From an uncultured Agathobaculum sp. (GTDB lineage: Bacteria; Bacillota; Clostridia; Oscillospirales; Butyricicoccaceae), in NCBI RefSeq assembly GCF_944380975.1, contig NZ_CALWJK010000016.1, positions 1-42,056 on the forward strand: 42,056 nucleotides of DNA. Reading direction: 5' to 3'. Positions 29,880-33,852 of this stretch are shown one piece after another. A program made the position numbers and the translations under genes. The notes beneath the pieces are model-generated. The model did not search any database. It was not told where the DNA came from and saw only the letters and a list, made by a program, of their open reading frames with translations. Each line of letters opens with the position of its first letter. Position 1 is the first letter of the stretch.

Positions 29880-30398
29880 TTACAGGGTTTCTGGCTGCTC
29901 GTACTCCACGCCCATCGTATCGACGGTAACGGTTTTCATTTTCTGCTCCTGACGGGGGCGGTCGTGCCAGTCACGCTGGGTATTGACGATACCATCTACC
30001 ACATCCATGCCCTCAATGACCATGCCGAAGGATGCATACTGGCCGTCGAGATGGGGCGAATCCTCCGTCATGATGAAGAACTGGCTGCCGGCAGAGTCCG
30101 GCGCCATCGTGCGCGCCATGGAAAGCACGCCGCGGGTGTGGTTCAAGTCATTCTGGAAGCCGTTTGCGGTAAATTCGCCGCGGATCTCATAGCCGGGGCC
30201 GCCCATGCCGGTGCCCTCCGGATCACCGCCCTGAATCATGAAGCCCGGAATGACGCGGTGGAAAATCGTGCCGTTATAAAAGCCCTTTTGAATCAGGGAA
30301 ATGAAATTGCGTACCGTATTCGGGGCGATCTCAGGATACAGCTCTGCGCGAATAACGCCGCCTTGCTCCATTTCGATCGTTACAATCGGGTTGCTCAT
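29880..30398 (-). CDS. ppiB: Cyclophilin-type peptidyl-prolyl cis-trans isomerase
   Basis: 172 residues; speeds X-Pro isomerisation during folding. Cyclophilin boxes: FHRVIPGFMIQGGDPEGTG (about 46-64, catalytic Arg in FHR), SMARTMAPDSAGSQFFI (about 92-108) and HLDGQYASFG. No signal peptide, so cytoplasmic. First gene of an operon with the GDPD-like gene. Confidence 0.96.
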   Translation of the reverse strand: MSNPIVTIEMEQGGVIRAELYPEIAPNTVRNFISLIQKGFYNGTIFHRVIPGFMIQGGDPEGTGMGGPGYEIRGEFTANGFQNDLNHTRGVLSMARTMAPDSAGSQFFIMTEDSPHLDGQYASFGMVIEGMDVVDGIVNTQRDWHDRPRQEQKMKTVTVDTMGVEYEQPETL

Positions 30399-30439
30399 GG
30401 TATATCACTCCATTATTGCGATTTTGAACATATATGTGT

Positions 30440-30468
30440 ATTGTAGCAAATTTCCGGCAAAACAGCAA
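30440..30468 (-). promoter_or_regulatory. ppiB promoter
   Basis: Minus strand TTGCTG (30463-30468), 17-base spacer, TGC-TACAAT (TACAAT 30440-30445), an extended -10. Confidence 0.55.
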
Positions 30469-30490
30469 GCAATGTTTCCATAATGAAACT

Positions 30491-30728
30491 CTCTGTGTGC
30501 ATTTGCAGCATAGTGGTCAAGAAATCCACTTTATGCACAGAGCTTTCCACAGCCCCTCTGGGGATAACCCTGTGTACAAAGTGGATAACTTTCAGTAATT
30601 GACCCCACAAGCACCCCAATCCTGTGACTTCGCCGTTTACACATTGTAATATTGCCTGCGGAAAGAAGCATTGGGGGATAATCCGGCACACCGCGCGGCA
30701 CACTGATTGTGTGAACACTTGTGCATAA
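30491..30728. other. Intergenic region with nested inverted repeats and DnaA-box-like nonamers
   Basis: No gene. A long interrupted inverted repeat: GGTCAA (30515-30520)/TTGACC (30599-30604), ATCCACTTT (30524-30532)/AAAGTGGAT (30578-30586), CACAG (30536-30540)/CTGTG (30570-30574), CCCC/GGGG at the tip. A second pair is CCCCAAT (30613-30619)/ATTGGGG (30670-30676). Nonamers near TTATCCACA occur at 30531-30539 (TTATGCACA), 30543-30551, 30559-30567, 30580-30588, 30673-30681 and 30720-30728. Function unknown. No convincing tepA promoter could be picked out. Confidence 0.6.
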
Positions 30729-30741
30729 AAGGAGGAGCCAC

Positions 30742-31425
30742 ATGGCAGAGGAAAACACACCCATCCAGGCGCCGGAGGAAAACAATATTGCTGAAACCGG
30801 TTCCATCACGGCCAAAACTTCGCGCGGTACGGTGCACTGCATCACCATTGTCGGTCAAATCGAGGGGCACATGGAACTGCCCGCGCAGAACAAAACGACA
30901 AAATACGAGCATCTGATTCCGCAGATCACCGCGGTCGAGCAGGCCGAAGAGATCGACGGCATGCTTATCCTGCTCAACACGGTTGGCGGCGACGTAGAAG
31001 CCGGTCTTGCCATTGCCGAACTGATTGCAGGTATGACCAAGCCGACCGTCTCTCTTGTGCTGGGCGGCGGACATTCGATCGGCGTACCGCTGGCAGTAGC
31101 GGCAAAAAAGAGCTTCATTGCCGCCTCAGCTGCGATGACCATTCATCCGGTGCGCATGAATGGCACGATCATCGCCGTACCGCAGGCATTTGAGTATCTT
31201 TCCAAGATTCAGGAGCGGATCGTGGATTTCATCACCAGTCACTCGCACATTTCCGCAGAATGCTTGCAGCAGCTCATGCGCGAAACCGGTCAATTGACCG
31301 CGGATGTCGGAACGGTGATTTCCGGCAAGCAAGCGGTAGAGCTTGGCCTGATCGACGCGGTCGGCACGCTGTCCGAGGCACTCGACGCGCTGTACGACAT
31401 GATCGGCAAAACGCCCGAATCCTGA
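30742..31425 (+). CDS. tepA: TepA-like ClpP-family serine protease
   Basis: A 227-residue ClpP-fold protease. Oxyanion LLNTVGGDVEAGLA (78-90), nucleophile S112 in LGGGHSIGVPLA and catalytic H135 in AMTIHPVRM. The set and the long N-terminal extension (GxIx...HxELP) match TepA/YmfB of Firmicutes, linked in Bacillus to signal-peptide degradation and protein export, rather than ClpP proper. The frame opens at GTG 30721, but AAGGAGG lies 6 bases before ATG 30742, which I take as the start. Monocistronic; ends at a bidirectional terminator. Confidence 0.9.
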   Translation: MAEENTPIQAPEENNIAETGSITAKTSRGTVHCITIVGQIEGHMELPAQNKTTKYEHLIPQITAVEQAEEIDGMLILLNTVGGDVEAGLAIAELIAGMTKPTVSLVLGGGHSIGVPLAVAAKKSFIAASAAMTIHPVRMNGTIIAVPQAFEYLSKIQERIVDFITSHSHISAECLQQLMRETGQLTADVGTVISGKQAVELGLIDAVGTLSEALDALYDMIGKTPES

Positions 31426-31430
31426 ATACA

Positions 31431-32462
31431 ACAACAAAGGCCCCGTCACCCGACGAGGCCTTTTACTTCCAGATTTCCATAGTCGCTCTTTTCCCAGCAG
31501 GATATTTCCCGCTGTATTTATTTTTTCTGCACGGTCGGATTTATTTTTGTTTCCCTTCCGTTACCCTGCTACGACTTTTGCTATCTGCATCGGAATGAAA
31601 CCATGCTCCGAGCCGCTATTTGCAGTTTTATGAAGCTATCCATTTTTACCGGCGATGCTTTTGCCCCGATCTTTTCAAAAACCAAAAGCCCGGTTGCACG
31701 ATATAATTCGATATCTTCGACCGACTGCTTCTCTTTCCTGCCTTTTACAGGAGTTCATTATCCTAATCGTTCACGGGAGTCACCCGACTGCGGTTCGTTT
31801 GGTAATGAACATTTTCTCCGTCGTTTACCTTTCTTACATTCGGGAACTCTATATCAATTTGTCGATGCGTCACTTACTCGGCGGGTGATCGTTCGATTCT
31901 GTTCCTGCTTACCCGAACCACTTTCAGCAAGTTTTGATATCATCTCTATCTTGTGCTCTGGTTCGCTTTTGCGGCATCATACTCATCAGTATGCCCATCG
32001 GCCATTGGATGCGCACTATTTTTGGTTTGGCAGGCATCGTCACGGATTCTTTTTCATTCGCCAACGCATCAAATTCAGGGGTCTTTCATGCGCGAACCTT
32101 ACTTTCCTGCTGCCTCGATCCACTTGCATCGTCAGTATGTTTCACGGATGGATATCACGAGGATAGCTTCCTCAAAGGTGCCGTTCCTTACTTCATTCAG
32201 AAGTCGATCGCGCTTTTCAGGCGGTTCGTTTTGATTTTCTGGAACTCGCTCATTCTTATAGCTATCACCTTGATCGTTTCGGTTACAGCGTCGCGGCGAG
32301 TCCCGCGAACGGATAGGATGTCTCTTCTGTTACCATTGGACTCACCTCTTTCTCCGGTGGTATTTGGCTGTACGCCAGCCCTTTCAGAATAAGAATGGGT
32401 TTCGCCTTTTTGTAAAGCCCCTGCTTTACTTTCCCTCTGGTGTTTGCCCTTATCTTTTCTGT
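31431..32462 (-). ncRNA. Candidate large structured non-coding RNA (about 1.03 kb)
   Basis: A 1-kb stretch with lower GC (about 47% in the lines I counted) than the flanks; the minus strand is purine-rich. No minus-strand ORF of 60 codons exists, and plus ORFs are short, Phe/Ser/Cys-rich and protein-unlike. A minus promoter (32469-32497) and the terminator at 31436-31464 frame it. Complementary pairs include 32449-32461/32385-32393, 32425-32430/32412-32417, 32376-32380/32366-32370, 32296-32301/32244-32249, 32158-32162/32113-32117, 32060-32070/32008-32013 plus 32027-32031, 31988-31993/31978-31983, 31960-31964/31915-31919, 31803-31810/31753-31760, 31684-31694/31648-31662 and 31565-31576/31481-31501. 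Large ornate RNA families (OLE, GOLLD, ROOL) are comparisons only; I cannot assign one. Confidence 0.65.
31436..31464. terminator. Bidirectional terminator of tepA and of the 1-kb RNA
   Basis: AAAGGCC-CGTC arm (31436-31447) pairs with GACG-GGCCTTT (31452-31463) with one mismatch and loop ACCC; TTTT on the plus side, TTTGTTGTTG on the minus side. Confidence 0.82.
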
Positions 32463-32468
32463 GATATT

Positions 32469-32497
32469 ATAATATCATCAAGATTGCACAACGTCAA
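32469..32497 (-). promoter_or_regulatory. Promoter of the 1-kb RNA
   Basis: Minus strand TTGACG (32492-32497), exactly 17 bases, TATTAT (32469-32474). A perfect TATAAT overlaps it at 32466-32471 with a 20-base spacer. Each hexamer of the first pair matches 5 of 6. Confidence 0.78.
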
Positions 32498-32532
32498 GTG
32501 TTATTTTCCGTTTTTTGATGGTGAATTTGCAC

Positions 32533-32552
32533 GAAAGAATCGCTATTCTTTC
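32533..32552. repeat. Perfect inverted repeat between two divergent promoters
   Basis: GAAAGAAT (32533-32540), CGCT, ATTCTTTC (32545-32552). It sits between the minus promoter of the RNA and the plus promoter of the alcohol dehydrogenase, so it may be a shared operator. Confidence 0.5.
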
Positions 32553-32585
32553 AGCGTTTTCCCTCTTTTCAAGGGCGAGCCAATT

Positions 32586-32594
32586 TGCTATAAT
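32586..32594 (+). promoter_or_regulatory. Promoter of the second alcohol dehydrogenase
   Basis: TGC-TATAAT (TATAAT at 32589-32594), extended -10, with TTTTCA 17 bases upstream as a partial -35. Confidence 0.65.
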
Positions 32595-32652
32595 AATATT
32601 GTTGAGTGTGTTTTACACCCATGCTAACTGAATTCCACAAAAATGCTGTCTT

Positions 32653-32677
32653 GGGGGTCATTTTGACCCCCTTTTTT
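32653..32677 (+). terminator. Leader terminator (candidate attenuator) ahead of alcohol dehydrogenase
   Basis: Perfect 8-bp stem GGGGGTCA (32653-32660)/TGACCCCC (32664-32671), TTT loop and six Ts (32672-32677). It lies between the promoter and the ribosome site (32679-32686) of the gene, so full expression needs read-through. Confidence 0.8.
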
Positions 32678-32694
32678 CAAAGGAGGTACAAAAT

Positions 32695-33852
32695 ATGGAT
32701 ATCTTCAGCTTCTACATGCCGACCCGCCTGTTTTTCGGACATGGCTCGGTCAAAAAACTGGCGCGCGCCCGTCTGCCCGAGGGCCGCGGCCTAATCATCA
32801 CCGGCGGCACTTCGACCACCCGCTTGGGTTATGTAGCCAAGGTGGCTGACGCGCTGGCCGAAGCCGGACACGAGACCATGGTATATAATAAAGTGCAGCC
32901 CAACCCGACCATTGAGGGCGTGCGCGAATGCGCAGCGCTGTGCCGTGCAGAAAACATCGCATTTGTTGTCGGCCTTGGCGGCGGTTCGTCAATCGACACC
33001 GCCAAAGCGGTCGCCATCATGGCCACCAATGAGGGCGATTGGTGGGATTACATCCACGGCGGCACCGGCGGCGGCAAGCGCATCGCCAAAGCCGGTCTGC
33101 CAATCGTTGCCATCCCGACCACCGCAGGCACGGGCACAGAGGCTGACCCGTTCACGGTCATCACCAACGGCGAAGAGAAGATCGGCGGCGGTGGCGAAAA
33201 ATGCTTCCCGACTATCTCGATCGTTGATCCCGACTTTATGATGACCGTACCGCCGCATTTGACCGCCTATCAGGGCTTTGATGCATTTTTCCACGCGGCG
33301 GAAGGCTATATCGCCACCACAGCCTCGCCCATCAGCGAAATGTTCTCGCTCAAGGCCATCGAATTGATCGGGCGCTCGCTTGCCACTGCCGTACACGAGG
33401 GCGGCAATGCAGAGGCACGCGCAGATGTTGCGCTGGCGAACACCTTGGCCGGCTTTGTGGAGACGCTGTCCAGCTGCACCGGTGAGCACGCTATTGAGCA
33501 TGCGCTGAGCGCATTCCATCCCGCGCTGCCGCACGGCGCGGGCCTGATTATGATTTCCAAGGCATACTGGAGCCGCTTTTTCGAGTCCTCGGGCGACAAA
33601 TTGGTTGCCATCGCCCGCGCGCTCGGTCATACGGACGCCAACAAACCGGAGGACTTCATCACAGCGCTTGCCGATCTGCAAAAGCGCTGCAACGTCAGCG
33701 AGCTGCGCCTTTCGGGCTATGGGGTACAGCAGGCCGATTTCGGCAAATACGCCGATAACGCCATCGAAACGATGGGCGGCTTGTTCCGCGTAGACCCGCG
33801 CCCGCTCACACGCGAGGATATTATTGCGATTCTTGCGGAAAGCTATAAATGA
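32695..33852 (+). CDS. Iron-containing (group III) alcohol dehydrogenase
   Basis: A 385-residue relative of propanediol/butanol dehydrogenases. Nucleotide-binding GLGGGSSIDTAKA (93-105), IPTTAGTGTEADPF (140-153), metal ligands D196 (YQGFDAFFH), H200, H265 (EHAIEH) and H280 (PHGAGL). Clearly distinct in sequence from the one at 6031 (different N-terminus, loops and C-terminus), so not a recent duplicate. AAAGGAGG lies 8 bases before the ATG. The leader has an intrinsic terminator, and the five-hairpin element follows the stop directly. The substrate is probably a fermentation aldehyde; not resolvable by eye. Confidence 0.93.
   Translation: MDIFSFYMPTRLFFGHGSVKKLARARLPEGRGLIITGGTSTTRLGYVAKVADALAEAGHETMVYNKVQPNPTIEGVRECAALCRAENIAFVVGLGGGSSIDTAKAVAIMATNEGDWWDYIHGGTGGGKRIAKAGLPIVAIPTTAGTGTEADPFTVITNGEEKIGGGGEKCFPTISIVDPDFMMTVPPHLTAYQGFDAFFHAAEGYIATTASPISEMFSLKAIELIGRSLATAVHEGGNAEARADVALANTLAGFVETLSSCTGEHAIEHALSAFHPALPHGAGLIMISKAYWSRFFESSGDKLVAIARALGHTDANKPEDFITALADLQKRCNVSELRLSGYGVQQADFGKYADNAIETMGGLFRVDPRPLTREDIIAILAESYK

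Follow-up and report, generated by a model that had tools for sequence, protein, structure and literature searches.

The question raised by this locus is what separates tepA from an iron-containing alcohol dehydrogenase (Fe-ADH) gene in an uncultured Agathobaculum species, a genus that we take to belong to the family Butyricicoccaceae and the order Oscillospirales. In the window, as we call the whole 42,056-nucleotide stretch of DNA that was analysed, the gap runs from 31426 to 32694, tepA (identified by a CLP_protease match) ending at 31425 and the Fe-ADH gene starting at 32695. An earlier note had proposed that it holds a framed minus-strand unit of about 1 kb: a large, structured, non-coding RNA without any credible protein. 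The frame was borne out, since gap, promoter and terminator were all found (Table 1), the terminator pairs falling within the 31436–31464 given for them. Promoter-like and terminator-like signals numbered 4 and 6, compared with 2.2 and 2.8 in shuffles, and are weak by themselves as counts, but both promoter boxes barely vary across the genus, which confirms the promoter. The lower GC content claimed for the unit also held, at 0.43–0.50 per interval in the gap and 0.51–0.64 in the flanks, except for 0.46 at 30250–30749, upstream of tepA. The two longest plus-strand ORFs of the gap (187 and 152 aa) had no Pfam match. On the evidence of comparison, the segment is the gene of a predicted stand-alone, structured RNA, served by a sigma-70-type promoter of its own and belonging to a family kept in parts of the order. 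Separately, plus-strand signals resembling a promoter and a terminator hairpin (GGGGGTCATTTTGACCCCC-T6) lie at 32566–32671, just upstream of the alcohol dehydrogenase gene, and are possibly an attenuator leader of that gene.

Table 1. Features of the RNA locus in window coordinates. RNA numbering in the text: p = 32466 − window coordinate.
Feature	Position	Strand	Remarks
Promoter TTGACG-17-TATTAT	32469..32497	minus	Both boxes nearly invariant in the 23-row alignment
RNA transcript unit, ~1.03 kb	31434..32462	minus	Predicted approximate ends, from promoter and terminator; homologues in the genus
5' hairpin, p37-42/49-54	32412..32429	minus	Above all 100 nulls; two-sided change in 5/6 pairs
P2, Shine-Dalgarno hairpin GGUGAGUCC/GGACUCGCC around ORF1	32295..32346	minus	Pairing kept, covariation slight
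ORF1, 17 codons, MVTEETSYPFAGLAATL	32283..32336	minus	Strong extended Shine-Dalgarno; AUG in P2; conserved stop
Long-range helix, 5' strand (p147-165)	32301..32319	minus	Covariation compared with nulls
Hairpin GAGGA-AGCUA-UCCUC	32159..32173	minus	100% of cells paired, no two-sided change
P3: closing helix, CCAAUGGCCGAUGGG, apical hairpin CAUACUGAUGAGUAUG (p454-492)	31974..32012	minus	Kept in four genera
Long-range helix, 3' strand (p688-706)	31760..31778	minus	Covariation compared with nulls
Variable domain	31496..31725	minus	Nearly none to ~460 nt in other Agathobaculum species
ORF2, MEIWK	31463..31480	minus	Stop abuts terminator; 4–6 codons in 23/23 rows
Intrinsic terminator, 12 pairs	31436..31463	minus	Covaries (above all 100 null alignments)

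A DNA search of 60 genomes recovered the RNA, whole or in part, in 24, all of them Agathobaculum; these are 24 of the 25 genomes of the genus, the source genome included. With homologues so distributed, the predicted gene is a real RNA gene. The remaining genome (G024, 96% complete) yielded no copy by DNA, pattern or model search. Among the 15 loci whose tepA is at least 85% identical, 13 have the RNA next to tepA, no RNA being found there in A. butyriciproducens DSM 100391 (L039) and B. faecihominis (L043); in one genome (G010) a different gene, as judged by eye, follows it. The RNA is present at the tepA locus of A. desmolans ATCC 43058 (L041). The resulting alignment has 23 rows with a mean identity of 73% (range 55–98%), and two genomes with RNA pieces only near contig ends (G013, G019) were left out. 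Two of the rows are differing copies (L008, L025) from a single assembly (G011; 77% complete, 2% contamination) and represent either a duplicate or a mixed bin. RNA length varies from 770 to 1305 nt in the alignment because the domain around p741–970 varies strongly. The size of about 1 kb in the earlier note describes Agathobaculum and is genus-specific: relatives have apparent lengths of up to 1420 nt, and compact ones are about 330 nt long.

The earlier note had proposed to look for homologues with covarying helices, and these were found. Helices were compared with 100 null alignments simulated on a FastTree tree, with each column's own changes re-dropped at random (30 nulls in an earlier version); this helix-level test replaced a column-pair G-test, which found no pair below E 0.2 and has too little power with 23 rows. 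The 5' hairpin, a long-range helix and the terminator each exceeded the best of the 100 nulls. In the long-range helix p147–153 and p156–165 pair with p688–706 across about 540 nt; 98–99% of cells are paired, 7 of the 16 pairs show two-sided changes, and the helix also forms when the single sequence is folded to minimum energy. Each half tested alone was not significant.

P2 masks the Shine-Dalgarno sequence of ORF1. It is paired in 98.3% of cells (36 sequences), compared with 29–45% when slid, and in 93.8% order-wide (33 sequences), where 2 of 7 pairs show two-sided change. In the former set 1 of 8 pairs does so, a level reached by 325 of 500 shuffles. P2 and the extended long-range helix share p163–171 and can therefore coexist only partially, an overlap that suggests a switch. 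P3 shows two-sided change in 7 of 10 pairs across its four genera, with 94.6% of cells paired compared with 27–49% when slid. Two candidates within P3 were dropped: its CUGAUGA, which resembles a hammerhead motif, because it is a hairpin loop and Rfam gave no ribozyme, and an ORF (MGILMSM...), because its length ranges from 8 to 24 codons with scattered stops. The loop of the GAGGA-AGCUA-UCCUC hairpin is complementary to an upstream GAUAGCU (contact 96%, no two-sided change), a possible pseudoknot.

The proposal of a structured RNA therefore held, with the multi-helix covariation of a large RNA, and of the five helices named for it one proved conserved and one did not. The hairpin at 31978–31993 is complete in 22 of the 23 rows and shows compensatory changes in other genera. 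In contrast, the helix 31753–31760/31803–31810 is complete in one row, with 53% of cells paired, and would cross the covarying long-range helix. Those at 31648–31694 and 31481–31501/31565–31576 fold in the window sequence, but fall wholly or partly within a domain (about 31725–31496) that in several species is almost missing or defies alignment; the 5'-end helix 32449–32461/32385–32393 also folds in the window sequence.

The gap holds no ordinary protein, as claimed, but the label of non-coding is only partly apt, as there are two micro-ORFs with conserved stops. As an internal control we followed every AUG column common to at least 18 of the 23 rows. There were seven such columns, including one within the promoter. 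For ORF1 and ORF2 the stop stays in a single column in 22 of the 23 rows, whereas the four other conserved AUGs in the transcript, three of which share a frame, have scattered stops (12 of 23 at best). By this comparison ORF1 and ORF2 are unlike the other conserved AUGs, and the two putative micro-ORFs are under selection. ORF1 has 17 codons in 22 of the rows and 20 in the remaining one. Across five genera, 37 of the 38 loci have an ORF1 of 16–20 codons (the 38th did not yield the search pattern), ending in TAA, TGA or TAG, while the two other frames at the site run from 1 to 82 codons. ORF2 has five codons in 21 rows and four and six in the other two, a result of whole-codon indels; its Shine-Dalgarno sequence is weak (−8.0). 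At the peptide level conservation is limited. ORF1 substitutions show only a mild synonymous bias (11 of 41 possible synonymous changes compared with 18 of 121), a point against the reading that we prefer below. FAGLAA is present in the ORF1 peptide of most genus rows and the ORF2 peptide is MEIWK in 14 of the 23, but between genera the ORF1 peptide keeps at most M-x-x-E, and not in all.

Scanning the whole window with Rfam 15 at gathering score gave no match to OLE, ROOL, GOLLD, HEARO or raiA, all of which we take to be among its models; the earlier note had likewise failed to place the RNA with OLE, GOLLD or ROOL. The segment alone, at E up to 10, gave sub-threshold matches to unrelated families and nothing above chance. 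At gathering score the relatives' loci matched rRNA, 6S, T-box and M-box models only, and one of them (L121), at E up to 5, gave one unrelated match. The absence of an Rfam match rules out known families alone. No description of the RNA was found in the paper listings and passages searched, which covered open-access main text and a minority of preprints, and a term search of the main text of PMC8040213 and PMC7580957, supplements aside, returned nothing relevant. The RNA family is well supported, and the case for its being new comes from the lack of a match in the Rfam scans together with listings that show nothing similar. Like OLE, ROOL and GOLLD, the predicted RNA is large and structured; in contrast to them it has neither Rfam nor phage matches and carries conserved micro-ORFs. 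Passages of PMC12286853 place ROOL and GOLLD in phages or prophages, frequently close to tRNA islands; GOLLD, they state, binds ribosomes in pull-downs, and RpsU is given as a proposed binding partner of OLE. The window sequence had no match among 50,697 phage and 72,556 plasmid records, a 24-nt core pattern had no exact match in viral contigs, and the three tRNAs of the window lie about 24 kb from the RNA. These searches gave no sign that the RNA has a phage or plasmid origin.

Relatives were found beyond the genus. With up to three mismatches allowed, the P3 sequence was recovered from 35 of 87 family genomes and 4 of 15 genera; the backward sequence of the pattern occurs in 0 of 87. Five matches outside the family at three mismatches were fetched (L136–L140) and proved at most weak P3-length profile matches; one locus within the family (L135) looks coding by eye. 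In the compact RNAs the ORF1 module lies 106–120 nt from P3, compared with about 355 nt in the window's RNA. With an E cut-off of 0.05, a model of the ORF1 module (R1) matched 84 of 394 order genomes. Of these, 29 belong to the own family, where nearly all matches reach 38 bits, and 55 lie outside it with no more than 31 bits; the weak matches include false ones. A wider model trained on 33 loci (R2) matched 48 of 295 order genomes with E no higher than 0.001; 20 of the 48 belong to the training set, and the weakest matches include leader-like or other ORFs (L158, L159, L199). Among 39 family genomes searched by model, chosen mostly for want of an earlier match, 12 had a match with E no higher than 0.01, which was weak in four cases, and 27 (G024 among them) had none.

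At class level there were 19 matches, 8 of them strong and within the order. The other 11 lie in 11 genomes outside it, where about 3 would be expected by chance, at E values of 8e-4 to 8e-3. Three of these open genes of 236, 335 and 360 codons, L232 and L233 have 3-codon ORFs and L238 an 18-codon ORF, and no 6S RNA was found near any of the five that were scanned. We take the outside matches as chance, while L232, L233 and L238 may be genuine; the ORF1 module is found elsewhere in the order and not convincingly outside it. One match outside the order (L229, 1501–1582) is an ORF of 47 codons near M-box riboswitch matches.

Some matches within the order were of other kinds. A second match in G012 (L146) is the start of an HD-domain gene, which begins with the same module. 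In L158 (849–1000) the module opens an ORF of 41 codons, whose small peptide looks hydrophobic. In nine loci of other order families (L150–L154, L156, L157, L159, L160) a Shine-Dalgarno-GUCCNAUGG module and a short ORF precede genes for secreted-looking or lipoprotein-like proteins; these leader modules are either a shared regulon or merely strong Shine-Dalgarno sites.

A promoter-like site (TTGAC-, spacer 16–18 allowed) lies upstream in 25 of 29 order-wide loci, one of them own-family, by raw count; the spacer is 17 in 24. These 25 loci and 12 chosen from the own family gave 37 transcripts, which were cut at 900 nt where they had no terminator, two being plain 1000-nt windows. CAAYTGAATA occurs in ten of them, in the own family and another (f1 and f26), compared with 0.13 expected by base composition, the ten being inflated by near copies.

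The relatives repeat a module, Shine-Dalgarno-UCCNAUG. TCC-A/C/G-ATG is present in 71 copies in the 37 transcripts, compared with 5.0 expected by shuffling. The loci were found through their first module, so that first copies are ascertained and the 34 later ones form the informative set. Among these a stop follows within three codons in 23, compared with 59 of 446 other AUGs; when each cluster is represented by a single transcript (26 of the 37), the counts are 15 of 22 and 49 of 325 (Fisher p 1.3e-7). Frequent copies read AUG UAC UAA or AUG UGC UGA. The window's own transcript runs against this pattern, its two later copies having 19 and 9 codons, and ORF2 in its genus, at 4–6 codons, lies beyond the strict three-codon limit. 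Mean pairing with the 16S tail was −18.1 kcal/mol for first modules, −12.4 for later ones and −10.7 for window gene starts, where the 33 gene starts were chosen for best pairing and the test pooled all modules, the first ones being ascertained. In L202, 2 of 6 GAGUCC copies, counted as 2 of 5 for GUGAGUCC, have no AUG (GUGAGUCCACC), and such copies occur likewise in relatives. Lambda bar is a known minigene. Minigenes have also been described in the axe-txe leader (PMC8708949). The relatives' modules resemble both in having a Shine-Dalgarno sequence, an AUG, one or two codons and a stop, and differ in being repeated within a stand-alone structured RNA. As far as the predicted transcripts allow it to be judged, this chain of start-stop modules is conserved and unusual.

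The relatives often lie close to the gene for 6S RNA. An Rfam 6S scan covered 31 genomes outside the own family, namely 30 of the 55 R1-match genomes and G145, which was found by R2 only and was not used to train it. Selection was by rank and sequence pattern, after removal of four false-looking loci, the coding- or leader-like matches L187, L189, L194 and L199 being set aside before the scan. In 14 of the 31 the distance from the RNA to a 6S RNA is about 1.1 kb or less, and short flanks at some loci mean that misses may be undercalled. The 6S RNA is divergent in the 13 measured (601–1031 nt) and, by coordinates, in G145. A DUF1292 gene separates the two in all six loci examined (L213, L217, L215, L203, L210, L202); in L217 the gene that follows is HD-like, scoring marginally below the Pfam HD cut-off, and by eye the same holds for L215. 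All 13 examined own-family genomes that also have the RNA carry 6S RNA elsewhere, and in the source genome it is on another contig (C43).

What, then, would such an RNA do? Comparison of the predicted transcripts establishes their transcription signals, a covarying fold in which the long-range helix closes the core and P3 is kept, and selection on the micro-ORFs. Conservation of start, stop and Shine-Dalgarno sequence without a conserved peptide points to the act of translation, and we infer that ribosomes initiate on the RNA. Our preferred reading, to which we give somewhat less than an even chance, is a new family of ribosome-engaging structured RNAs that would capture ribosomes. The start modules, each with an extended Shine-Dalgarno sequence, AUG and nearby stop, would capture ribosomes or 30S subunits, and translation of ORF1 would open P2 and the long-range helix. 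Because strands of both helices lie in ORF1, ribosome supply would set the fold. In trans, the RNA might lower initiation on other mRNAs or report ribosome availability.

The boldest step is that the RNA may withhold ribosomes from other mRNAs as 6S RNA does for RNA polymerase. This idea draws on the 6S analogy and on the repeated modules of relatives; the genus of the window has only two clear micro-ORFs, and in view of the weak ORF2 Shine-Dalgarno sequence the many-module picture comes from other families. Like 6S (SsrS) RNA (RF00013), the RNA would be a stand-alone regulator, and the logic proposed for it, capture of a core machine, is that of 6S; in contrast to 6S it has no Rfam match (RF00013 found nothing within the window), carries start modules and is a separate gene near the true 6S. 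A translational counterpart of 6S RNA, often back to back with it, mimicking start sites and capturing ribosomes while translation of its own micro-ORF gates the fold, is a tentative and on balance doubtful reading.

Alternatively, the start modules could be stability elements, with parked 30S subunits shielding an RNA whose folded core (P3 and the long-range helix) does the real work. Covariation of P3 and the core, and the spread of P3 over four genera, fit this, and the Stab-SD effect known from cryIIIA leaders is a precedent. Ribosomes on minigenes have also been proposed to protect an mRNA, by the authors of PMC8708949. The immediate stops after later AUGs and the conserved micro-ORF at the extreme 3' end are not readily explained in this way, and we regard this reading as unlikely.

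RNAIII (hld) and SgrS (SgrT) are dual-function RNAs that combine structure with a short ORF. The predicted RNA likewise combines structure with a short ORF under selection, so its ORF1 peptide, and that of ORF2, could be the product. The constancy of ORF1 length, the FAGLAA segment and the recurring ORF2 peptide favour such a role, but so little of the peptide is left between genera, and later minigenes would encode mere dipeptides, that we consider it quite improbable; in contrast to RNAIII and SgrS, there is more than one micro-ORF, the peptide is hardly conserved between genera and relatives carry start-stop minigenes.

CsrB and CsrC are sponges of CsrA, and by the same logic the RNA could titrate an RNA-binding regulator that recognizes the start module in mRNA leaders. 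GAGUCC repeats that in part have no AUG, and similar modules before genes for secreted-looking proteins in other families, would fit a sponge. However, these leaders could be ordinary strong Shine-Dalgarno sites, the protein partner is hypothetical and a sponge has no need of conserved stops, which makes this very unlikely. The purely non-coding ornate RNA of the earlier note, taken to form an RNA-only particle, would suit the large covarying fold and lies beyond the reach of the Rfam result, which excludes known families only, but it is highly improbable given two micro-ORFs with conserved stops and relatives of compact size.

Whether or not the capture reading holds, the family adds a new, covariation-supported RNA, a chain of start-stop modules in its relatives and a recurring association with the 6S locus. 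If ribosome capture were true, common gut bacteria would possess an RNA for metering ribosomes, as 6S RNA does for RNA polymerase.
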